A model generated the notes under the pieces. The model was not told where the DNA came from. It saw nothing but the letters and a program-made list of their open reading frames with translations, and did not search any database. From a virus, in IMG/VR virus record IMGVR_UViG_3300046736_000165, positions 1-23,571 of that record: a DNA stretch of 23,571 nucleotides. One strand, given 5' to 3'. Shown one piece after another: positions 658 to 22,243 of the stretch (the stretch's first letter is position 1; each line of letters starts with the position of its first letter). The position numbers and the translations under genes were made by a program.

Positions 658-704
658 TTTGTGTTAGGGATTGAGGTTTTGGCGTTGCCTTTCATGGCTG
701 AACC

Positions 705-750
705 GAATAAAAAAGCGGGCGCAGGGACTGTTTCAGCAGCCCGAGCGCCC
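705..750 (-). terminator. Rho-independent terminator, minus strand
   Basis: The ends GGGCGC (717-722) and GCGCCC (745-750) pair perfectly, with an inner CTG/CAG stem. Read on the minus strand the hairpin is followed by GCTTTTTTATT. It would stop transcripts coming from the tail genes after they cross the HNH gene antisense, before the 88-residue gene. Confidence 0.65.
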
Positions 751-766
751 TAACCCAAACCGCTGT

Positions 767-1309
767 ATGAGAACGGAATCGGCTGGCAGCCTTCTGCCTC
801 AAGTCACGCCCAAGGTCGAGACCTACTTTTGGGGTAACGTTGCGAAACGCGCGCCAGAGGAATGCTGGTTGTGGATCGGCTGCAAAACGAACTGGGGATA
901 CGGACAGGCTTCTATTCGTAAGCGATTTATTGGGGCGCACCGCCTGAGTTGGCAGATCCATTTCGGAGAGATTCCTTCGGGACTCTGCGTTTGTCACCGT
1001 TGCGATGTGCCCTTGTGCGTTAACCCGCAGCACCTTTTTATTGGGACTACGCAAGAGAACCACGCCGATTGCGTGAGAAAAGGCAGAGTTGCGAGCGGCG
1101 CGAAGCATGGATCTCATACACGTCCAGATCGAATCGCTCGTGGCGAACGCCAAGGGCATGCAAAACTCACAGAAACCGATGTGCGGGAAATCCGGCGGCT
1201 GTGTGCGATGAACGGAGTGGTCCAAAGAAAGATCGCAGTTCAATTCAATATCTCTTGGGGCGTCGTAAATGACATCGTTCGCCGCAAAACGTGGCGGCAT
1301 GTTGGGTGA
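767..1309 (+). CDS. Free-standing HNH endonuclease (homing type)
   Basis: A 180-residue protein. The HNH core is CHRCDVPLCVNPQHLFIGT around residues 76-94, with His77, Asn86 and His89 as likely catalytic or metal-binding residues. The following ENHAD...KGR block is typical of the HNH_3 family. The C-terminus (from about residue 133, KLTETDVREIRRL) is a helix-turn-helix of the kind that gives such homing enzymes DNA specificity. I chose the ATG at 767 because an in-frame start further upstream would place the terminator hairpin inside the coding region. The gene lies on the opposite strand to its neighbours, six bases from the tail fibre stop, as expected of a mobile endonuclease inserted between genes. 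Confidence 0.88.
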   Translation: MRTESAGSLLPQVTPKVETYFWGNVAKRAPEECWLWIGCKTNWGYGQASIRKRFIGAHRLSWQIHFGEIPSGLCVCHRCDVPLCVNPQHLFIGTTQENHADCVRKGRVASGAKHGSHTRPDRIARGERQGHAKLTETDVREIRRLCAMNGVVQRKIAVQFNISWGVVNDIVRRKTWRHVG

Positions 1310-5240: not shown

Positions 5241-6173
5241 TTACGTCCCGCTTGCATATCCGCGTCTTACCTGAGCCTGAATCTCCGGGTCCCCCTCCTG
5301 GAACTGCTTGTAGAGTGGATTATTCTTGTTCGTCGCGATGTCCTTGGCCCATGCCGCCTGCGACAGGTTCTTAACCGCTGCGCCCGACACCAGGTGCCCC
5401 TCGCCAACGTCGACGCCCAGACGCGCCACCAGTGAAAGCGCCTCGACTCCCCAGAACTTGTCCGACTGAGGATCAAAGTACGCTGGGTCAACGCCCTTGG
5501 TCCGCGCGACCCGCTGTGCCAGGTCCACCGACCTCTCGACCGCATCACCGAAAGTAGCTCGCAACTCAGCCTTCTCCGCGACGAGCGCCGCCGCCACCGC
5601 ATCGCGATTTGCTCGCGCCTGCTCACCCACCATCCGCACTTGGAACTCTTGCAACCCGTGAGCCTGTTTCGGCGTCAGTCCAAGTTTGACCGCCTCCTGC
5701 GCGAATGCCTCTCGCAGTTTCGGATCATCCCCGACTCCCTCGGGAAATTTGTCCGGCGGCTTCAGCCCGTAGTCGGCCGCCCGCTCCGGCACGCCGATCG
5801 ACTTGTTGAATGCCGTCCATTCTTCCGGCGTCGCCTCGGCTCCTGGCACTTTGACCATGCCATCGGTCTTCTGCCGGGCGGCCGCCATGTTGTCTTTCAT
5901 CACCCGCGCCACCGACTTCAAGTCGCCGAACTGCGCGAGCATTGCGCGGTCCTCCTCGAACTCCGCGGGCAGGCGATCCTGCCACCCAGGGATAAACTTG
6001 CCCTCGGGCGTGATGATCGATGAATTCCACGGCGCCTCGGCCGGCGGAATACTCGACGGCTGCTGGCTAGCGGGGACTGGCGACGCCGCTGCGCCGCCGA
6101 CTGCTGGTGCAGCCGGCGCTGGCGCTGACGACGGTGGTGGTGCGGACGGTGGTGGTTCTGCGACTGGGCTCAT
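5241..6173 (-). CDS. Capsid scaffolding protein
   Basis: A 310-residue protein. The first 45 residues are a Pro/Ala/Ser-rich disordered tail. The body starts with ITPEGKFIPGWQDRLPAEF, then the block VPGAEATPEEWTAFNKSIGV (about residues 109-128) and ADYGLKPPDKFPE. That combination recurs in phage scaffold or head-assembly proteins encoded between connector and capsid genes. A long helical middle (about residues 150-240) fits a scaffold rod. Its start overlaps the stop of the acidic 100-residue gene by four bases. The role, assisting procapsid assembly and then leaving the head, is inferred from family and position. Confidence 0.82.
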   Translation of the reverse strand: MSPVAEPPPSAPPPSSAPAPAAPAVGGAAASPVPASQQPSSIPPAEAPWNSSIITPEGKFIPGWQDRLPAEFEEDRAMLAQFGDLKSVARVMKDNMAAARQKTDGMVKVPGAEATPEEWTAFNKSIGVPERAADYGLKPPDKFPEGVGDDPKLREAFAQEAVKLGLTPKQAHGLQEFQVRMVGEQARANRDAVAAALVAEKAELRATFGDAVERSVDLAQRVARTKGVDPAYFDPQSDKFWGVEALSLVARLGVDVGEGHLVSGAAVKNLSQAAWAKDIATNKNNPLYKQFQEGDPEIQAQVRRGYASGT

Positions 6174-6472
6174 GCGGTTTCAGTTTCCTCCGTCGCTGGA
6201 GTGGCGGGCGCCGCCGGCGCTTTCCCCTTGCCCTTTCCCTTCCCCTTCTCCGTTCCCTCCGGGTGCCGCTCGTGCCAAGCGATCCACGCAGGGTCCTTGG
6301 CCCCGAGATACGGGTCCTGCTTCGGTTCAGGATCCGGGTCCGCCGCCGGCTCGCCCGTTTCGGTCGTTTCGGTCGTCTCCGGGTCCTCTCCACTCTCTTT
6401 GGTTGCCCAGGGCGACGATTTTTGCCCGTGGATGTTCTTTTCAGGATGCTTCGGCGTTGGTTGCGTGCTCAT
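6170..6472 (-). CDS. Acidic low-complexity small protein between Bbp19-like and scaffold genes
   Basis: A 100-residue protein starting MSTQPTPKHPEKN. The middle is acidic and repetitive (ETTETTETGEPAADPDPEPK), followed by DPAWIAWHERHPEG and then a KGKGKGKGK run and an Ala/Pro tail. The KG run is coded by a short purine-rich repeat near 6222-6250. I chose the ATG at 6472 because the reading frame further upstream reads as a shadow of the Bbp19-like gene. The gene overlaps the end of that gene by 32 bases and the scaffold start by four. It may be a scaffold accessory or an internal head component, but I do not recognise a family. Confidence 0.6.
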   Translation of the reverse strand: MSTQPTPKHPEKNIHGQKSSPWATKESGEDPETTETTETGEPAADPDPEPKQDPYLGAKDPAWIAWHERHPEGTEKGKGKGKGKAPAAPATPATEETETA

Positions 6473-9034: not shown

Positions 9035-9385
9035 CTACACCGCCCGGAACGGGAGAAACCGCGACGAACGATAAAACCTCATCTTGTTTTTGCGCTCGAA
9101 CCCGATCCACGGTTTTGGGACCGGCAGCCACCGTGCAGCAACCGACATATCGCCCGCCAAGAGCCAGATCAGCCAGGCGTCGCCCTGCTCGTCTGCGTGC
9201 CATGGTTGGCGCAGCACGTCCAGCGGCCAATGCCGCCAGACGATGCGAACCATGGCGAATGCTTCAGGTGTCGAGACAACGTACCCGTGCATGAGGTGGT
9301 GCCACAGATCCTCCTCGAACGACCTAGCGCACGGCTCGCTCTCATACACGCCCAGGGCCCGGGCAAGCGGCGGCGACAACTTCAC
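9035..9385 (-). CDS. Conserved-looking small protein after the large terminase, function unknown
   Basis: A 116-residue protein, Trp-rich (EEDLWHHLMHGYVVSTPEAF, WRHWPLDVL, GDAWLIWLLAGDMSVA). The start is a GTG that overlaps the terminase TGA as GTGA, which fixes it well. The mixed helix/strand pattern with a hydrophobic centre (AWLIWLLAGDMSVAARWLPV) resembles an acetyltransferase-like or small alpha/beta fold, but the similarity is too weak to name. Coupling to terminase suggests a packaging or head-related job. Confidence 0.65.
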   Translation of the reverse strand: MKLSPPLARALGVYESEPCARSFEEDLWHHLMHGYVVSTPEAFAMVRIVWRHWPLDVLRQPWHADEQGDAWLIWLLAGDMSVAARWLPVPKPWIGFERKNKMRFYRSSRFLPFRAV

Positions 9386-10701
9386 CAGTCCATTCTGGTT
9401 CCCATGATCGCACGCTGCGGCCTGGCGCGCTCCTGCTCGCCGGTTTCATAGCGCGGGATCAGCCCGTTCACATCCGCCTCGGCCATCGTCCGCAGCGCGT
9501 CCGCGACATGCGCAGCCCAGGTTGCCAGGGGATCGCGGCGCTCGATCCCCTGCTTGTTCGCCGGCGCGCTCTCGTAGCTCTTGAGCCCGCGGACCCCGAC
9601 CTCGCACGCAGGCAGGCGAAACTCGAACGTGCCGAACAGGCTCGCGGCATGGTTGATCCCGTTCCACACGTCCGCGACCTGGGGAACAATGAGCATCCGG
9701 CCGAGCTGCGCCTCGCGCGCGTCTTGCTCGAACGTCCGGCCGGTTCGGGCGGTTTGCTTCGCATCGTGAGGCAGGTAGTGGATCCCGTAGTTGTATCCCT
9801 TTTGGCGCATGTGGTGGACGCGTTCGGCCAGCGTCAGGTTTAGCCCATAATCGCAGTCGATGAAACGGGTTACCCCAAACGGGAGGCGCTGCCAGTACCA
9901 CACCACCGTGTTTTGCGGGCTCCCCAGATCCCAGGAAGTGTGGACAGGCACCCGCCCATCGACCACGAATTCTCCGATCCGCCCCTCGGCGAGCGCCGCG
10001 CTCATGAATCTGCCATAAATAGCATTTTCGTTAGCACTGGTGAAGTCGCACCAAAACTCTTGGCGGATCAGGGCATCGCTCATCCCTTGGCGCCGCTCGG
10101 CTTCGATGTCGGCCAAACTGATGGCCCCGGTATCATCGACGGTAAGCACCTGCGCGAACCAATCAGGGTCGCTCTGCGCCATCGTCAGCATGTCATAAAG
10201 ATGGTTTTCGCCGCGTGGCGTGGCGTTGAACCAGGCGAAACCGCCATTCTCCGCGAGGATCGGGCGAGTTAGGTCCCATGCGAGTGGGTTTTGCAGGGCG
10301 TATTCCGAGAACGCGACACCAAAGAAGTTACCGCCGACCACGTCCAGGTTGTCAGTCCCGAATACCTGGATCGTCGAGCCATTGATGAGCGAGATTTTCA
10401 TCTCGGTTTGGTTCGGCTCTTTGGCCAGCAGTTCGCGCGGGATGTGATCGATGACGCGCATCTTGTTGGCCACATCGACGTTCTCCCAGAGCGCGCGCCG
10501 GCCGAGCCGGGCGGTGGGGAAATAGTACGCATAGTTCGCCATCGTCTCGCACGCGCGGACCAACAGCTTATTGAGGAACAACTTGTCTTTCCCGGCGCGG
10601 CGGTGCCAGACGCAGAGCGCGCGTTTGTGGGTATCCATGGCGCGCCAGACTGGCAATTGGTAGTCGCGCGGCGTGAATCGATGTGGGACTTGAATGACCA
10701 C
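9382..10701 (-). CDS. terL: Terminase large subunit
   Basis: A 439-residue protein that packages DNA into the prohead. Seen: Walker A-like WHRRAGKDK (residues 32-40); Walker B FGVAFSEYA (about 127-135, with the catalytic Glu after Ser); the coupling motif FNATPRG (158-164); and the RNase H-fold nuclease with Asp258 (SWDLGS), Asp282/Asp284 and Asp401 (HVADALR). The sequence is closest in style to T7-like or 'WHRRAGKD' podophage terminases. The start must be the GTG at 10701, because an in-frame stop lies three codons upstream and the next ATG (residue 22) would cut into the ATPase domain. A perfect hairpin lies just before it. Confidence 0.95.
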   Translation of the reverse strand: MVIQVPHRFTPRDYQLPVWRAMDTHKRALCVWHRRAGKDKLFLNKLLVRACETMANYAYYFPTARLGRRALWENVDVANKMRVIDHIPRELLAKEPNQTEMKISLINGSTIQVFGTDNLDVVGGNFFGVAFSEYALQNPLAWDLTRPILAENGGFAWFNATPRGENHLYDMLTMAQSDPDWFAQVLTVDDTGAISLADIEAERRQGMSDALIRQEFWCDFTSANENAIYGRFMSAALAEGRIGEFVVDGRVPVHTSWDLGSPQNTVVWYWQRLPFGVTRFIDCDYGLNLTLAERVHHMRQKGYNYGIHYLPHDAKQTARTGRTFEQDAREAQLGRMLIVPQVADVWNGINHAASLFGTFEFRLPACEVGVRGLKSYESAPANKQGIERRDPLATWAAHVADALRTMAEADVNGLIPRYETGEQERARPQRAIMGTRMDW

Positions 10702-10855: not shown

Positions 10856-11131
10856 TCAGCGATCGATTGCATTTAGCGCCCCTCGTTCTTTCAGCGCAGC
10901 CTCAAGGAATTTTATCGCGTTCTTTTTTGCCCCTGCCGCGCTCACATGCGGAGGTGGATGATGATTTAGTCCATTGCCTTCCCCAGTAATCTGGCATCTC
11001 CACGCTACCGAGTAGTCGCTACGGTAGATTTGGAAGTGATACGTTTTGCCGTTCGACGCCGTATGGTTGCAGTCGGCGTATTCCCATTCAGCGTAGTCCT
11101 CGATATTGATTTTTTGTTTCGCCAAGGTCAT
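10856..11131 (-). CDS. Small protein between the two terminase subunits, function unknown
   Basis: A 91-residue protein starting MTLAKQKINIEDYAEWEYADC. The start is set by an ATGA overlap with the small terminase stop. The N-terminal part looks like a small beta sheet (KTYHFQIYRSDYSVAWRCQI) and the C-terminal part like a helix (AAGAKKNAIKFLEAALKERG). No family is recognised. Its coupling to terS suggests a packaging accessory protein, which is inference. Confidence 0.6.
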   Translation of the reverse strand: MTLAKQKINIEDYAEWEYADCNHTASNGKTYHFQIYRSDYSVAWRCQITGEGNGLNHHPPPHVSAAGAKKNAIKFLEAALKERGALNAIDR

Positions 11132-11766
11132 AACTTGCGGATTTCGATGACGACACGACCGTCGTGCTCGTGTTTCTCTGGTTCGTTCCAGCCGCATAGC
11201 TTGGTGAGGCGGTCGATGGCACCGAGTTTCGAACAGAGGACAGGGACCATGCCGATCCTGCCCGGACCCGGAGCCATTTCGCAGATATCGCTTCCCACAT
11301 GGGCATCCGCGGGAACGGCACTGATCAGACGCTCGCACCACTTGCGCAGAGCAACGCGGTCGAGGTGTGATTCTAGCGCCTGTTCTCGTTGTAGTTCTTG
11401 TATTCGTTCTGCAATTTGAGGCTTTTTGAGCAATCTAGGACCATCCCATGGTGCGGTGGTGGTATTGGTGTAAACCCGGCCGTATGCGGCGCCGGCGGAA
11501 ATGTTGCCCGGGGCGACGAGTTGGGCGACTGCTTCCCAGCGACGATTAGCCAGCGGCGTGCCAGGCGCTCGATACGGGATCGGGCGAGGACGAGGCTTTG
11601 GCCGTGGAGTTGCCGGCCGGCCAGGGCGCGGTTTGGATGCCGCGGATGAGTCGTTGGCATCTGAGGCATTTTCTGTCGTGCTGACCATCGAGAGGGATGC
11701 CGCCGATCCATGAGGCGCCGCAGATTGGGCCGGTAAATTCTGAGGGAACGAAGTGAGCTGAGTCAT
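11128..11766 (-). CDS. terS: Terminase small subunit
   Basis: As drawn, a 212-residue protein. A long basic and proline-rich N-terminal tail (PRPGRPATPRPKPRPRPIPY) is followed by a helix-turn-helix-like segment: NRRWEAVAQLVAPGNISAGAAYGRVYTN, then PQIAERIQELQREQ. This is the arrangement of Terminase_2-type small subunits, which recognise the packaging site and load the large subunit. The C-terminus continues through a helical oligomerisation-like region to VVIEIRKL. The start is uncertain: ATG at 11766, or ATG at 11685 (MVSTTENASDAN), because a second plausible reading frame covers the segment between them. Its stop overlaps the next gene as ATGA. Confidence 0.75.
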   Translation of the reverse strand: MTQLTSFPQNLPAQSAAPHGSAASLSMVSTTENASDANDSSAASKPRPGRPATPRPKPRPRPIPYRAPGTPLANRRWEAVAQLVAPGNISAGAAYGRVYTNTTTAPWDGPRLLKKPQIAERIQELQREQALESHLDRVALRKWCERLISAVPADAHVGSDICEMAPGPGRIGMVPVLCSKLGAIDRLTKLCGWNEPEKHEHDGRVVIEIRKL

Positions 11767-11788
11767 GCCAGAGCGACCGTTGCCACAT
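11546..11788 (-). CDS. Possible small zinc-binding protein overlapping the terS 5' end
   Basis: An 80-residue frame starting MWQRSLWHDSAHFVP. It has CGASWIGG and then DRKCLRCQRLIRG, a plausible His/Cys-Cys-Cys zinc knuckle of the kind seen in many small phage proteins. Codons in the first 50 residues favour G or C at the third position as real genes here do. The last 30 residues are low-complexity and run antiphase to a clearly coding part of terS, so either the genes overlap by about 140 bases or the ORF is partly a shadow. Confidence 0.35.
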   Translation of the reverse strand: MWQRSLWHDSAHFVPSEFTGPICGASWIGGIPLDGQHDRKCLRCQRLIRGIQTAPWPAGNSTAKASSSPDPVSSAWHAAG

Positions 11789-11825
11789 GTTGAGCGAAAG
11801 GGAATCACGAGAGTGTGGCAAAGGT

Positions 11826-11932
11826 CAAGGACAAAAAGTGGCTTTTCCGCCCGGGATGAAAAAGGCACAAAAAGGCACGTTTGGTGCGTTGGGATGGCAC
11901 AAAAAGTGAGGCCTGCGGCAACAAAAAGGCTG
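11826..11932. repeat. Four A5-centred repeats upstream of terS
   Basis: The element G-G-(C)-(A)-A/C-ACAAAAAG followed by G/T-G appears at about 11829, 11863, 11895 and 11918 (for example GGCACAAAAAGGCAC and GGCACAAAAAGTGAG). The last copy merges with the T-run of the terminator of the neighbouring gene, so part of the similarity may be trivial. The position just before terS is where small-terminase recognition sites or promoters are often found. Confidence 0.4.
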
Positions 11933-11955
11933 GAGAAGGTCGCCCCTCCCCAGCC
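11920..11955 (-). terminator. Strong rho-independent terminator of the VPEGG-CTERM gene
   Basis: On the minus strand a 10-base stem, GGCTGGGGAG with TTCTCCAGCC (two G-U pairs), closes an eight-base loop and is followed by TTTTTGTT. It begins 28 bases after the stop of the sorting-signal gene and separates that gene from terS. Confidence 0.85.
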
Positions 11956-11983
11956 TCCGAGAGTTCGTCAGCCGCCCTTCCGG

Positions 11984-12574
11984 TCAGGCAATCGCAGACG
12001 CTCTCGAAAGAACCCTGCGAGCGACGCCCAGGCCCGCAATGACGAAGCCAAGGAGAGCGACGCCCGTGCCGCCCTCCGGCACGCTGAAAGGCGTCGGGGT
12101 CACGTCGCCCTGACCTGAGAACAAGGTGTAGTGCGAGATGCGATACTGCTCGTGGTTGCTGGTCCACAGATCCCAAGGATACTCGGGGATCGTGGAGGCG
12201 GTGCCGCCGAACACGAACAAGGCGTAGCCCGCGTTGTTGCCATCGTATTTGACCAAGGCACCACCCCAGCCAGCCGGGATCGAGACGATGCCGTCGCCGA
12301 CGATCAGGTCCGGGTGCTGCCCGCCGTTCGAGGTGATGGTGCCAGCGTAGTTGAAGATGGTATTCGCGGCGTAGGCACCATCAACCTGGCCGAGAGCGAG
12401 GTCGAGGATGTGCTGGGCGATGAGCGTCTCGGTCGCAATGTTCGAGTTGCCCGGCTGGCCGTTGACGATGCCGACCAGATACTGCGTCTGGAGCGAGAGG
12501 GGATTGGAGATGGTGACCCCGAGCCCCGTGCTGGAGACCCCGAGGGAGAGGAGTGTGATGAGGATGAGTTTCAT
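11984..12574 (-). CDS. Secreted protein with VPEGG-type CTERM sorting signal (probable phage moron)
   Basis: A 196-residue protein. Residues 1-20 form a signal peptide (MKLILITLLSLGVSSTGLG). The middle is a beta-rich domain with WGGALVKYDGNNAGYALFVF at about residues 103-122 and EQYRISHYTLF near 142-152, a pattern common in exosortase-sorted proteins. The C-terminus is a tripartite sorting signal: the motif VPEGG (165-169), a hydrophobic helix (GVALLGFVIAGLGV) and a basic end (ARRVLSR). By family knowledge, such tails (VPDSG/PEP-CTERM class) are processed by a host exosortase at the inner membrane and the protein is exported to the surface or matrix. The gene has its own upstream AT-rich region and a strong terminator, as phage morons do. 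It has no close Shine-Dalgarno sequence. Confidence 0.85.
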   Translation of the reverse strand: MKLILITLLSLGVSSTGLGVTISNPLSLQTQYLVGIVNGQPGNSNIATETLIAQHILDLALGQVDGAYAANTIFNYAGTITSNGGQHPDLIVGDGIVSIPAGWGGALVKYDGNNAGYALFVFGGTASTIPEYPWDLWTSNHEQYRISHYTLFSGQGDVTPTPFSVPEGGTGVALLGFVIAGLGVARRVLSRASAIA

Positions 12575-12594
12575 GCGGGCACTTTTTACGTCGT

Positions 12595-12624
12595 TTGCGT
12601 AACTCGCGCCACTCAAATTAGAAT
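12595..12624 (+). promoter_or_regulatory. Candidate sigma70-type promoter for the ERCC4 nuclease
   Basis: TTGCGT (12595-12600), an 18-base spacer, then TAGAAT (12619-12624), a five-of-six match to the -10 consensus. It lies in the AT-rich gap between the divergent CTERM and ERCC4 genes, about 40 bases before the first codon of the open frame. Confidence 0.4.
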
Positions 12625-12660
12625 TAATTACTGTAAAGAATTCCGACACTTGTGCATAGT

Positions 12661-12679
12661 TGTGAATCGAAAATTCACA
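12661..12679. promoter_or_regulatory. Perfect palindrome at the ERCC4 gene start
   Basis: TGTGAAT and ATTCACA flank the spacer CGAAA as a perfect 7+5+7 inverted repeat. It spans the in-frame stop (12663-12665) before the ERCC4 frame and its first codons. It could be an operator shared by the two divergent genes or an RNA hairpin at the start of translation. Confidence 0.5.
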
Positions 12680-13118
12680 CCTGCTGCTGATCGACAGCCG
12701 GGAACCGTGGCCCCACCCGTGGGGAGAGTGGTTGCCCGAGGGATGGGGCGTCGAACGCAAATGCCTGGCAACCGGCGACCTCTGCCTGGCCACCAATGAG
12801 GGGACGGTGGTCGAGCGGAAAACGGGACTCGATTTCCTCTCGTGCGTCGGCGGCCAGCGGGAACGGTTCGAGCGGCAACTCGTCCGCTCCCGGCACCTCG
12901 ACGCGTTCGTCATCATCGTCGAGAGCGATTTCCCGTCGCTCATCCGGATGCGCGGCGGCTTGAGCCCGCAGTCGATCGTCGGCACGGTGGCGGCCTGGTC
13001 GAGGAGGTACGCGCCGATCCTCTTTGCCGGCGACGCGCCACATGCCGCCCAGATTGCCTGGCGTTGGCTCGCACAGCCGCTCCAGGAGGCGCGGAGGGTG
13101 GTGGGAGGGGTAGTGTAA
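12666..13118 (+). CDS. ERCC4-domain nuclease, start codon unclear
   Basis: The open frame encodes up to 150 residues. It carries the ERCC4 (XPF/Mus81-type) nuclease signature in order: LLLIDSREPWPHPW, then ATGDLCLATNEG, then VVERKTGLDFL. It continues with GQRERFERQLVRS, FVIIVESDFPS and SPQSIVGTVAAWSRRY, as in stand-alone phage members of the family. These enzymes cut branched DNA; a role in phage recombination or replication intermediates is likely. All catalytic residues (Asp, Asp, Glu-Arg-Lys, Asp) are present. However, no ATG, GTG or TTG lies in frame between the upstream stop (12663) and the DSRE motif. Only CTG (12681-12689) or ATC codons could start it there. The TTG at 12732 would remove the first motif. 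Confidence 0.75.
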   Translation: MENSHLLLIDSREPWPHPWGEWLPEGWGVERKCLATGDLCLATNEGTVVERKTGLDFLSCVGGQRERFERQLVRSRHLDAFVIIVESDFPSLIRMRGGLSPQSIVGTVAAWSRRYAPILFAGDAPHAAQIAWRWLAQPLQEARRVVGGVV

Positions 13119-13142: not shown

Positions 13143-14432
13143 TCACCGCTCGAAAGTCTGAATGTCCCCAACCAGCTTGTAAGGCATCGACCAATCTCGC
13201 TCTCCGTCGCGATTCTTTGCGCAGAGGATGCGGCCGGCGTCCGATTCGATGACGAGGTAAACCCCGGCATGATGCTTCAGCGCGCGGCTCTCGCGCACCT
13301 TCCCGTCGTCGTTCAGTTGCGTCGGCGCGATGACAGGGATTCCGAGTTCATTGCTCATCTTCTTACACTCGGCGCCAATGAAACTGATTTCCTGCTCGCG
13401 GTTCGCTTGGTCACGAAACCGGCCAGCAGTGGCGAGTTGGACGTAATCGAGCAGCACGCATCCGAGCGGCTCCTTGGCGTGCTCCCCGCGGGCGATGGCC
13501 CGCACGTCCTGAATGTGCAGGTCGGAATCGTCGTAGATCGTGAGCATCTTCGCGTTCCAATCGCTGCCAGGCCCGACGAGTTTCGGCCAGTCAGAAGTGC
13601 CGAGTTTTCGCGGGTGCATCAGCCGCGACATTGGGATGCGACTCTCTGCGGCGACCACGCGGCGAACCAACTTCATCGCCGTCATTTCGAGTGGGAAGAC
13701 GAGGGCTCGCTGTCCGGCTCGGAGGACGGCGCGAACGAGCTGCATCGCCAGGACGGTTTTCCCGGCAGAGGTCTCGGCGCCGATGAGCCACAGGTCTGGA
13801 ATCAGCCCGCCAATTTTCTCGTCGAGTTCGGGAATTCCGGTGGAGATTGGTTGGCCGGACGTGTGCTCGTCCCCGGCCTCGTAGGCCTCCTCCAGGCTCG
13901 TGATGAACTCGCGCAGGACATCCGCACCGTTGACGAGTTTGGACGAGGCAGACGGCGCGCTGAGGGCCGCCAGCGAAGTCAGTGCGGTGCTGAGGTCGTG
14001 GTCAAATGATCCGCCGGCCATGTAAGCCACGGCGAGGAGGCGCGAACAGGTGGCTATTGCCTCGCGCCGCTGCCACTCCTGCCGCAGGACTCCGGCGTAG
14101 AATGCCGCATTTTCGGGCGATGGCGAGCCGGCGATGCCGCCGACGATTTCGAGTAGCGTTGCCGGGCCGCCGATCACCTCGAGCGCCCCAAGGGCAATCA
14201 GGCGGGATTGCAGGGCCAGCGCATCGACCTCTCTCTCGTCCGGCCGTTGCTCGCGAATCCATGCGATTTCGGCCCAGAGGCGCCGATGTGCCGGGATGTG
14301 GAGCCACTCTGAGCGGAAGCCGTGGAAGGCGAGTTCGGTCTCCCACTCGGGCGATTGGAGGGCCAGCGTGAGGACGGCTTTTTCCGCTTCGGGCTTTGAC
14401 GGTAAGGCCCTGAATGTGTCAGTGATAGCCAT
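13143..14432 (-). CDS. dnaB: DnaB-like replicative helicase
   Basis: A 429-residue protein. The N-terminal domain (about residues 12-150) begins PSKPEAEKAVLTLALQSPEW and has the HRRLWAEIAW and VIGGPATLLEIVGGI elements of DnaB N-domains. The RecA-like core follows: STGIPELDEKIGGL (about 197-210), Walker A GAETSAGKT (218-226), FPLEMTAMKLVRR (246-258), Walker B CVLLDYVQL (325-333), and the sensor-like PTQLNDDGKVRESRALKHHA. It would unwind DNA at the phage replication fork. The ATG at 14432 sits two bases after the stop of the DUF1376 gene. It is shorter than bacterial DnaB, as phage versions often are. Confidence 0.93.
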   Translation of the reverse strand: MAITDTFRALPSKPEAEKAVLTLALQSPEWETELAFHGFRSEWLHIPAHRRLWAEIAWIREQRPDEREVDALALQSRLIALGALEVIGGPATLLEIVGGIAGSPSPENAAFYAGVLRQEWQRREAIATCSRLLAVAYMAGGSFDHDLSTALTSLAALSAPSASSKLVNGADVLREFITSLEEAYEAGDEHTSGQPISTGIPELDEKIGGLIPDLWLIGAETSAGKTVLAMQLVRAVLRAGQRALVFPLEMTAMKLVRRVVAAESRIPMSRLMHPRKLGTSDWPKLVGPGSDWNAKMLTIYDDSDLHIQDVRAIARGEHAKEPLGCVLLDYVQLATAGRFRDQANREQEISFIGAECKKMSNELGIPVIAPTQLNDDGKVRESRALKHHAGVYLVIESDAGRILCAKNRDGERDWSMPYKLVGDIQTFER

Positions 14433-14434
14433 GG

Positions 14435-15073
14435 TCAGTAGTCCCTCGATGGGATGCCGGTTTTCTGGCGTTTGAACGCTTTCGCGTTGGTGCCAAACCT
14501 CACGGCCCAACCCTTGAGCGACGATTGCCAGCGGCGAATGGGCTGGCCTTTGCTGTCCACCCAGCCGCGGGCGTCGTGGTCGTCCCACCACAGCGCGGCC
14601 GATTCAGGAGGAATTCCGAGGTTGACGGCAAAAATAACGGCGGTCTCGCGCGCCCCCGGCGCGCTCTGACTCTCAGGAGACGGAGACGGAGACGGAGACG
14701 GAGACGGAGGGCTTTCGCTATGCTTTCCATGTGGTAAGCATGTGGAAACCATATGCTTTTTCGGTCTACCACCCTTCGCCCCGTTGGAACTCCTTGATTT
14801 TCTATAGGCTTCTGACTCCTTCCTCACTGCCTCCAATCGCCTGTTACGCAGAAGCCCGTCCTTTCCTGACTGAAACTTCGATAAAATCTCAGAAATATTT
14901 TCATCGGAGGTGTCGCAAAGTCGCGCGAGTTTCTTCGCGTCGTTTGGCAATCCACCAGTCTCCCACTGGTGACACAAAAGCACGATATATGCGCCTTTCT
15001 GTTCGCATGTTAGGAGGGCGGTTCCCATGAGGAAGTCGGTTGGGTAGAATTGGAATGACTGGCTGGTTTTCAT
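14435..15073 (-). CDS. DUF1376-type replication initiator / helicase loader
   Basis: A 212-residue protein. The N-terminal domain has the DUF1376 pattern: FQFYPTDFLMGTALLTCEQKG, then AYIVLLCHQWETGGLPND, then KKLARLCDTS, then ISEILSKF with a basic RKSRSSNGAKGGRPKK segment. A Ser-Pro repeat linker (about residues 122-134) joins it to a C-terminal region with AALWWDDHDARGWVDSKGQPIRRWQSSLKGW, as in phage replisome organiser and helicase-loader proteins. In this family the N domain probably binds the origin and the C domain recruits the helicase, whose gene follows two bases later. The linker is coded by a perfect hexanucleotide repeat. Confidence 0.85.
   Translation of the reverse strand: MKTSQSFQFYPTDFLMGTALLTCEQKGAYIVLLCHQWETGGLPNDAKKLARLCDTSDENISEILSKFQSGKDGLLRNRRLEAVRKESEAYRKSRSSNGAKGGRPKKHMVSTCLPHGKHSESPPSPSPSPSPSPESQSAPGARETAVIFAVNLGIPPESAALWWDDHDARGWVDSKGQPIRRWQSSLKGWAVRFGTNAKAFKRQKTGIPSRDY
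14676..14705. repeat. Five perfect GGAGAC hexamers inside the initiator gene
   Basis: Five uninterrupted GGAGAC copies, followed by a near-copy GGAGGG, encode the Ser-Pro linker of the DUF1376 protein. Gain or loss of a unit keeps the frame and changes only linker length. Confidence 0.8.
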
Positions 15074-20376: not shown

Positions 20377-20886
20377 ATGAGCATCGCATCCCCCGCCGCC
20401 ACAGTCCGCATTTTGTCCAACCTCGCAGCCGAGCAGGCCGACATTCTGGTGAAAAGACTGTCCTACGCAGAAATGTTGCTGGCCGAGGCTACCACGCCGG
20501 CCGAGGCGGTGAAAACTTACAAACTCGCCGAGGCCGCCCGCGTCTATGCCTACAATGTCGGCGCTGCTCCACCGCTCATAAATCGCGCTGTAGTCCTTAA
20601 GCTCAAGGCCAGACGCAAGATGGGGGACTTGATGGACAAGGAGAGGGCGCTACAGCGTTCCGGTCCCGGCGCCTTTTCAAAGTTGTTGCAGCGAGGGAGA
20701 AGACTACTCCAGCGAGGAGCGAGGGCTCTAAAGCGCAATCTCATTGCGTCCCTACTCTTCGCAATCCTTTGCGTCCTGGTCGGGTTCCTCGTCCTTGCGT
20801 TCTACTGCGCAAATTGGCAATTTCACATTTTCGCACGGCATTTACCTCGGGGCTCTCGAATAGAACTCCACCTCGACAGCTATTAG
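20377..20886 (+). CDS. Phage protein with KARRKMGDL motif and C-terminal membrane segment
   Basis: A 169-residue protein. The first 95 residues (LSYAEMLLAEATTPAEAVKTY..KLAEAARVYAY..AVVLKLKARRKMGDLM) match a common phage/plasmid family of unknown function, usually found beside ParB-like or replication genes. From about residue 96 the sequence changes: an Arg/Leu-rich stretch (LLQRGRRLLQRGARALKRN) and a strong transmembrane helix (LIASLLFAILCVLVGFLVLA), then a hydrophilic end. In the family the usual continuation is soluble, so the tail looks acquired or altered. It lies next to the attachment site. Confidence 0.65.
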   Translation: MSIASPAATVRILSNLAAEQADILVKRLSYAEMLLAEATTPAEAVKTYKLAEAARVYAYNVGAAPPLINRAVVLKLKARRKMGDLMDKERALQRSGPGAFSKLLQRGRRLLQRGARALKRNLIASLLFAILCVLVGFLVLAFYCANWQFHIFARHLPRGSRIELHLDSY

Positions 20887-21059: not shown

Positions 21060-21093
21060 GCGTGAGCTGTGCGTGAACTAGCGTGAGCTACGC
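21060..21093. repeat. Second GCGTGAGCTA repeat array, before the integrase gene
   Basis: GCGTGAGCTGT, GCGTGAACTA and GCGTGAGCTA follow one another with a trailing CGC, spaced 10-11 bases. They share GCGTGAGCTACGC (13 bases) with the array at 15646-15685. They end eight bases before the integrase ATG and lie 42 bases after the tRNA-like core, where integrase arm-type sites are expected. Confidence 0.7.
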
Positions 21094-21100
21094 ACGCGAA

Positions 21101-22243
21101 ATGACCAAACGCGCCCCAATCCCGCCCCAGGTGCGCCCCACGCGCATCCAGTTCGACGGGCGGGAATGGCCGATGTATTACGAGCCGACCGGCTGGCGGC
21201 TGCGGTCGAAGGCGAAAGGACGGCTGGCGGACTTCCGGACCGGGACGAAGAACCTCAAGGAAGCGACCCGGCGGGCCCGCGAATACCTCGATCGCCGGGC
21301 CAATGACCCGCGGCACAGCCGGAAGGGCGGCGGGACGCTCGAGGCGCTGGCCGACGTCTACATTGAGACACCGAAAAGGACCAAAGGAAACGTGGCCGAG
21401 AACAACGTCTCGAGGCTCCGAGGCATCTGCCGCGTGATCGGGCGCGAGTTGGGGACGGTGACGTGCCGGGAAGTCGGGCCGGAGTTCTGGCAACTCTATC
21501 AGCGCCAGGCGCTCGAGCGGGCTGGCCGGCGGTTCGATCTCGTCACGAGGTATCGGGAGAATATCGCGATCAATGCCGCGGTGCGGGCGGCCCGGTGCCT
21601 GTTCCTACGCGCGCTCCTGCCGGCGTATCGAGCGGCGGGTCTGGATCTGCGGCCTGATGCGGGCGAGGCGGTGATGCTGCCGGTCCCCTACCTGCCGCCC
21701 TCTGCGATCGATGACGCGGCGGTCGTGGAAGGCTGGTCGGCACTCGAGGTGACTGATCGCCTCTGGCTCGTGATCGGCCTCGCACGGTTCGCCGGCCTGC
21801 GGCGGGAGGAGATCAAGGCGTTTCGCGGATCCTGGATCGAGGACCAGGTTGGCGTCGTCTCGATCGCCCTGCGGGACCGGCCAGAGGAATCGTGGTGGAC
21901 GAAAACCGGACGTCCCTACCGGGCCCAAGTGATCGAGCCGCGCCTAGCCGAATGGCTGCGGACGGCGGCCCAGAAACCGGACGCCCTCGTGGTCCCCGAT
22001 CCGCCCGATGGCTCAGACCGCCGCCACTGGTTCGCTCACGAGCCGCAGCGGTGGCTTAGGGACGTGGCCGGAGTGAGAGCAGGGAAACCCTTGCACCGTC
22101 TGCGCGGGCTCTATGCTGACCATGTGGCCCAGCTCACGGCCGATGCGGTGGCGGCCAGGCTCGCGGGCATCGAGGCCGCCCGGGCGAACCTCGGGCATAC
22201 GACCAGCGCGGTGACGGAGGCGCACTACCTCACTCCTCACTAA
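21101..22243 (+). CDS. int: Tyrosine-recombinase integrase
   Basis: A 380-residue protein starting MTKRAPIPPQVRP. The catalytic residues are visible: Arg234 in ARFAGLRREEI, Lys268 in WWTKTGRP, His332 and Arg335 in LHRLRGLYADHV, His366 in NLGHTTSAV and Tyr376 in EAHYLTPH. The N-terminal part (about 1-75) is basic and likely binds arm sites; the middle (about 80-180) is the core-binding domain. A GTG at 21083 is possible, but it lies within the repeat array, so the ATG at 21101 is preferred. It would integrate the phage into the host tRNA-Leu. It ends overlapping the stop of the convergent tailspike gene. Confidence 0.92.
   Translation: MTKRAPIPPQVRPTRIQFDGREWPMYYEPTGWRLRSKAKGRLADFRTGTKNLKEATRRAREYLDRRANDPRHSRKGGGTLEALADVYIETPKRTKGNVAENNVSRLRGICRVIGRELGTVTCREVGPEFWQLYQRQALERAGRRFDLVTRYRENIAINAAVRAARCLFLRALLPAYRAAGLDLRPDAGEAVMLPVPYLPPSAIDDAAVVEGWSALEVTDRLWLVIGLARFAGLRREEIKAFRGSWIEDQVGVVSIALRDRPEESWWTKTGRPYRAQVIEPRLAEWLRTAAQKPDALVVPDPPDGSDRRHWFAHEPQRWLRDVAGVRAGKPLHRLRGLYADHVAQLTADAVAARLAGIEAARANLGHTTSAVTEAHYLTPH

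Follow-up and report, generated by a model that had tools for sequence, protein, structure and literature searches.

Substrates of the EpsH (exosortase) system, represented by the VPDSG-CTERM and PEP-CTERM families (PF18205, TIGR03778, and TIGR02595; PMC1569441), carry a signal peptide and end in a tripartite sorting architecture, wherein a proline-containing motif is followed by a hydrophobic helix and a basic cluster (PMC1569441, PMC3237569). Such proteins are encoded by many gene copies scattered over the chromosome, as with the 65 PEP-CTERM proteins of Verrucomicrobium spinosum, and release of the processed proteins to the surface or matrix has been proposed (PMC1569441). According to work cited in PMC9012009, PEP-CTERM proteins and exopolysaccharide are needed for floc formation by Zoogloea.

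Two precedents involve phages. SasX, a protein encoded by a staphylococcal phiSPbeta-like prophage, has a signal peptide and a C-terminal LPXTG sorting motif, borrows the sorting enzyme of its host, and is associated with aggregation and biofilm (PMC5088179). In addition, TIGR03118 proteins with a putative exosortase-interaction tail have been reported as host-derived genes in viral contigs from Yellowstone hot springs (PMC11003980). Reliance of a phage-borne protein on the sorting enzyme of the host is already known from Gram-positive bacteria, and a count of exosortase-type tails is available for viral contigs.

The locus described here lies in a metagenomic IMG/VR virus record of 23,571 bases, IMGVR_UViG_3300046736_000165, which was analyzed over its whole length and is called “the window” below. 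This single record encodes TerL, portal, capsid, DnaB, and integrase proteins. The presence of the integrase and of an XRE-type regulator indicates that the phage is temperate. The features that define the locus and its setting are as follows.

9382-10701, minus strand: large terminase subunit, TerL, downstream of the CTERM gene (phrog_2)
11128-11868, minus strand: small terminase subunit, downstream of the CTERM gene (phrog_51)
11984-12574, minus strand: gene for the VPEGG-CTERM protein of 196 amino acids (open reading frame and translation; homologues in two other contigs)
12014-12085, minus strand: sorting tail VPEGGTGVALLGFVIAGLGVARR, PF18205-like (PF18205 profile, six-frame search)
12518-12574, minus strand: signal peptide MKLILITLLSLGVSSTGLG, with probable cleavage before VTIS (sequence, aligned with ASA-VT and ASA-IV in the homologues)
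12684-13118, plus strand: ERCC4-type nuclease gene, the divergent neighbor between the CTERM gene and DnaB (context)
13143-14591, minus strand: DnaB-like replicative helicase, upstream of the CTERM gene (context)
21083-22243, plus strand: integrase (phrog_1)

The encoded protein begins with MKLILITLLSLGVSSTGLG, continues with an ectodomain body of ~145 residues, and ends in SVPEGGTGVALLGFVIAGLGVARRVLSRASAIA. A search of viral databases, as suggested in a preliminary description of this DNA, revealed homologues beside phage genes in two other IMG/VR contigs. The first is IMGVR_UViG_3300011443_000023 (44.7 kb; loci L002 and L091-L093), a sister podovirus-like phage that shares 86-91% DNA identity with the window across the structural genes. 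Its homologue has 205 amino acids, is 57% identical to the window protein, and is located between a helicase gene and the small terminase gene. The second is IMGVR_UViG_3300046736_000149 (26.3 kb; loci L007 and L090), from a phage that is unrelated in its terminase. Here the homologue has 202 amino acids, is about 71-72% identical to the window protein, and has its own terminator; its gene is divergent from a DNA methyltransferase gene and upstream of an HTH/small-terminase-like gene. In both contigs, the homologue repeats the layout of the window protein, from the signal peptide through the body to the VPEGG tail. By inspection, all three proteins carry a Sec signal peptide consisting of MK, a hydrophobic stretch, and a small-residue cleavage site. 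The open reading frame translation and the two homologues therefore bear out the original claim of a 196-residue protein with a signal peptide and a tail composed of VPEGG, a hydrophobic helix, and ARR.

Assignment of this tail to the exosortase type is architectural rather than based on score, because the profiles give borderline scores and do not match the sister homologue. PF18205 (VPDSG-CTERM), the sole Pfam match of the window protein, covers 24 of 26 profile positions at 21.3 bits against a cut-off of 25, whereas a six-frame search of the window with the same profile yields 25.1 bits (E 6.4e-7). TIGR03778 yields 14.8 bits against the window protein (cut-off 22). The L007 homologue scores 18 to 21.7 bits, below the PF18205 cut-off of 25, and the sister homologue matches neither PF18205 nor TIGR03778. 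The profile check proposed earlier thus gives a borderline result, with PF18205 reaching its cut-off in the six-frame search and both models falling below theirs at the protein level. Nevertheless, the three parts of the tail, namely the motif, the transmembrane helix, and a basic cluster near the C terminus, are present in every homologue: VPEGGxGV, the hydrophobic helix, and then R-[RK], with a brief extension up to the C terminus, are retained in all three, and the linker ahead of the tail differs in length among them. When 1.08 Mb of fetched phage DNA was scanned in six frames with a strict tail pattern, the three CTERM genes were recovered and nothing else. A looser pattern returned some unrelated open reading frames from this DNA, none with a VPEGG-like motif.

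The short TIGR02595 model misses the real CTERM tail yet gives false six-frame matches. One of these, at 20666-20728 on the minus strand (16.2 bits), passes the cut-off and was rejected because it is antisense to the open reading frame at 20377-20886 on the plus strand.

Given these borderline scores, the miss of both PF18205 and TIGR03778 by the sister homologue, and a host exosortase that is presumed, one possibility is that the protein is an ordinary exclusion or conversion protein of the phage, with a signal peptide and a C-terminal transmembrane anchor, that acts at the inner membrane or in the periplasm with no exosortase processing at any stage. We consider this unlikely, because V-P-E-G-G-x-G-V, the helix, and R-[RK] are kept in all three proteins despite a variable linker, which is the tripartite architecture described for PEP-CTERM proteins (PMC1569441, PMC3237569). 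Another possibility is that the GG within the motif marks a GlyGly-CTERM tail read by rhombosortase, and that the protein is not an exosortase substrate. Some Verrucomicrobia, Opitutus terrae among them, have proteins of the GlyGly-CTERM type (PMC3237569). However, the matches of an NCBIfam scan (E up to 10) included VPDSG-CTERM and a PEP-CTERM family but no GlyGly-CTERM model, and the invariant VPE ahead of GG suits the VPDSG/PEP type, making recognition by rhombosortase highly improbable. No EpsH-type exosortase is encoded in any of the three phage records. Thus, processing of the tag would need a host enzyme.

Searches for relatives beyond the three phages did not expand the family. No chromosomal relative of the protein emerged when 84,980 species genomes were scanned for close relatives, and protein searches of phage, plasmid, and genome collections likewise returned none. 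A single weak match to a microvirus pilot protein (E 0.05) was taken as chance. The ectodomain has no trustworthy match in Pfam, NCBIfam, or the PDB, where matches with E 0.017 or worse reflect chance or hydrophobic-tail similarity. A match of the body to phrog_16436 (E 6e-4) is not reproduced by the homologues, and therefore we claim no homology. A motif scan for the body yielded no new carriers, and the AlphaFold model of the protein (pLDDT 37.6) is unusable.

The gene has evolved on a course of its own. Between the window and its sister phage, dS is 0.41 for TerL, 0.24 for the portal, 0.38 for the major capsid protein, and 0.57 for the scaffold, compared with 1.43 for the CTERM gene. Between the window and L007, dS for the CTERM gene is 1.11; because values above 1 are near saturation, the ranking of closeness leans on protein identity (about 71-72% versus 57%) as much as on dS. 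The large terminase of L007 has relatives that differ from those of the window TerL, and its portal shares only a remote family with the window portal (phrog_332), with the capsid protein in a different family. Indeed, DNA similarity between these two phages is confined to the CTERM gene, tail-protein pieces, and an HNH gene. That the CTERM gene is closer to its counterpart in an unrelated phage than to that in the sister indicates that it has passed from phage to phage separately from the structural genes. The tail-protein pieces in common suggest that window-type and L007-type phages infect similar hosts.

Among these phages, the HNH endonuclease gene (window 671-1309, plus strand) is a mobile gene of the homing type, with relatives in L007 and at two or more sites of the sister contig (L091 and L092). 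Palindromic words resembling GCGAGCGTTAGCGAGC occur at L007 positions 5730-5755 and 6270-6300, within the stretch of the homologue that encodes the signal peptide and at its stop codon, and may have been left behind by a small mobile repeat.

The dN/dS ratio of the CTERM gene, about 0.2-0.27, indicates a selected protein-coding gene under purifying selection. This ratio and conservation in two other phage contigs make it very unlikely that the tail-bearing open reading frame is due to chance. PEP-CTERM proteins are normally chromosomal (PMC1569441), and one might therefore suspect a host gene joined to the window by misassembly or a host remnant acquired once. However, two further viral records have homologues at the corresponding position and the gene is under purifying selection, such that a host origin of this kind is extremely improbable. 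Misassembly itself, a concern raised in the preliminary description, is ruled out by the presence of homologues with equal architecture in two separate metagenome records.

These data accord with a moron, as first proposed for this gene between packaging and replication genes. A profile search found the CTERM gene to be absent from 48 of 50 viral records, a set made up mostly of terminase relatives and including many fragments; the two that matched are the known carriers. The gene is therefore dispensable among relatives, sits between replication and packaging genes, and keeps a constant position upstream of the small terminase gene in three records. Its horizontal acquisition independent of neighboring genes is evident from the discordant dS and identity values and from the lack of common terminase and head genes in L007. 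It is also followed by its own terminator in the window and in L007. The elements at the two ends of the window gene are as follows.

11926-11957 (approximate), minus strand: intrinsic terminator with a 14-bp GC-rich stem and a U5 run (-28 kcal/mol, z -4.7, for the isolated element)
12575-12683, no strand assigned: A+T-rich divergent intergenic region, a probable promoter (sequence)
12658-12682: inverted repeat AGTTGTGAAT-CGAAA-ATTCACACCT, including GTGAAT-CGAAA-ATTCAC at 12662-12678, located between the CTERM gene and its divergent ERCC4-type neighbor

The claim that the gene forms its own unit with a strong terminator holds at the 3′ end, where the hairpin (z -4.7) directly follows the gene in the window, as a terminator does in L007. 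The 5′ end of the unit is less firmly placed, because no sigma-70-like promoter consensus was found for the window gene; a promoter is implied by the divergent neighbors in the window, where the ERCC4-type gene lies on the opposite strand, and in L007. Judging from its sequence, the inverted repeat is a candidate operator; its core, GTGAATNNNNNATTCAC, has no other exact copy in the window. In the sister phage, the structure 3′ of the gene is not significant (z -0.03) and the gene begins 40 bp past the preceding open reading frame. The gene may therefore belong to an early operon in that phage, where its status as an independent unit is weaker.

The divergent ERCC4-type nuclease frame has no ATG, GTG, or TTG start ahead of its conserved LLIDSREP motif. 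The candidate starts that follow the in-frame TGA at 12663 are limited to ATC and CTG; the gene may be damaged, or its translation may begin at a non-standard codon.

The CTERM gene is on the late-gene strand immediately upstream of the small terminase gene in all three phages, which could mean that it encodes a late lytic protein, for example of the virion or of the lysis machinery, whose tail is incidental. This too is very unlikely, because two of the three phages have a strong terminator between the gene and the late genes, related phages manage without it, and its evolution and exchange are independent of the structural genes. We conclude that the gene is probably a moron of temperate tailed phages whose product is secreted by Sec, carries a PEP/VPDSG-type tag, and would be processed by a host exosortase to become a surface protein.

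We propose lysogenic conversion as the most likely mode of action: the protein would be exported by Sec during lysogeny, or late in infection, and its C-terminal tail would retain it in the inner membrane. A host exosortase could then cleave at VPEGG and hand the protein to the cell surface or the exopolysaccharide matrix, where the conserved ectodomain might alter the surface, for example through matrix binding, aggregation, or blocked adsorption of related phages. The gene would travel between unrelated phages that share exosortase-bearing hosts. On balance, we lean toward the broader view that a family of temperate phages of exosortase-bearing bacteria displays a protein of its own at the cell surface or in the matrix via the host exosortase, as a conversion factor swapped among unrelated phages of the same hosts. 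VPDSG-type tails are tied to Verrucomicrobiota, and a sorting tail could hint at the host of viral contigs that have no other assignment. Given the need for PEP-CTERM proteins in Zoogloea flocs, a prophage carrying a gene for such a protein could alter the aggregation, matrix, and adsorption properties of its host.

Compared with known VPDSG-/PEP-CTERM substrates, the protein has the same order of signal peptide, proline-containing motif, hydrophobic helix, and basic cluster. It differs in its VPEGG motif, its borderline scores, an ectodomain outside any Pfam or NCBIfam family, and carriage by phages rather than in scattered chromosomal copies. The preliminary statement that no phage example had been established was nearly right, given that a conserved unit with an exosortase-type tail exchanged between phages was not found in the literature searched, but it overlooked the two precedents. 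The TIGR03118 proteins belong to another family of unknown function and were reported as a bare count (n = 13), with no conserved unit across phages shown (PMC11003980). SasX is alike in being prophage-encoded, in its signal peptide and C-terminal sorting motif, and, on our reading, in borrowing a host sorting enzyme (PMC5088179). However, it depends on a Gram-positive sortase system, and we claim no sequence relation between it and the present protein. If our interpretation is correct, these phage proteins are a Gram-negative counterpart of sortase-anchored prophage proteins and extend lysogenic conversion to the exosortase route.
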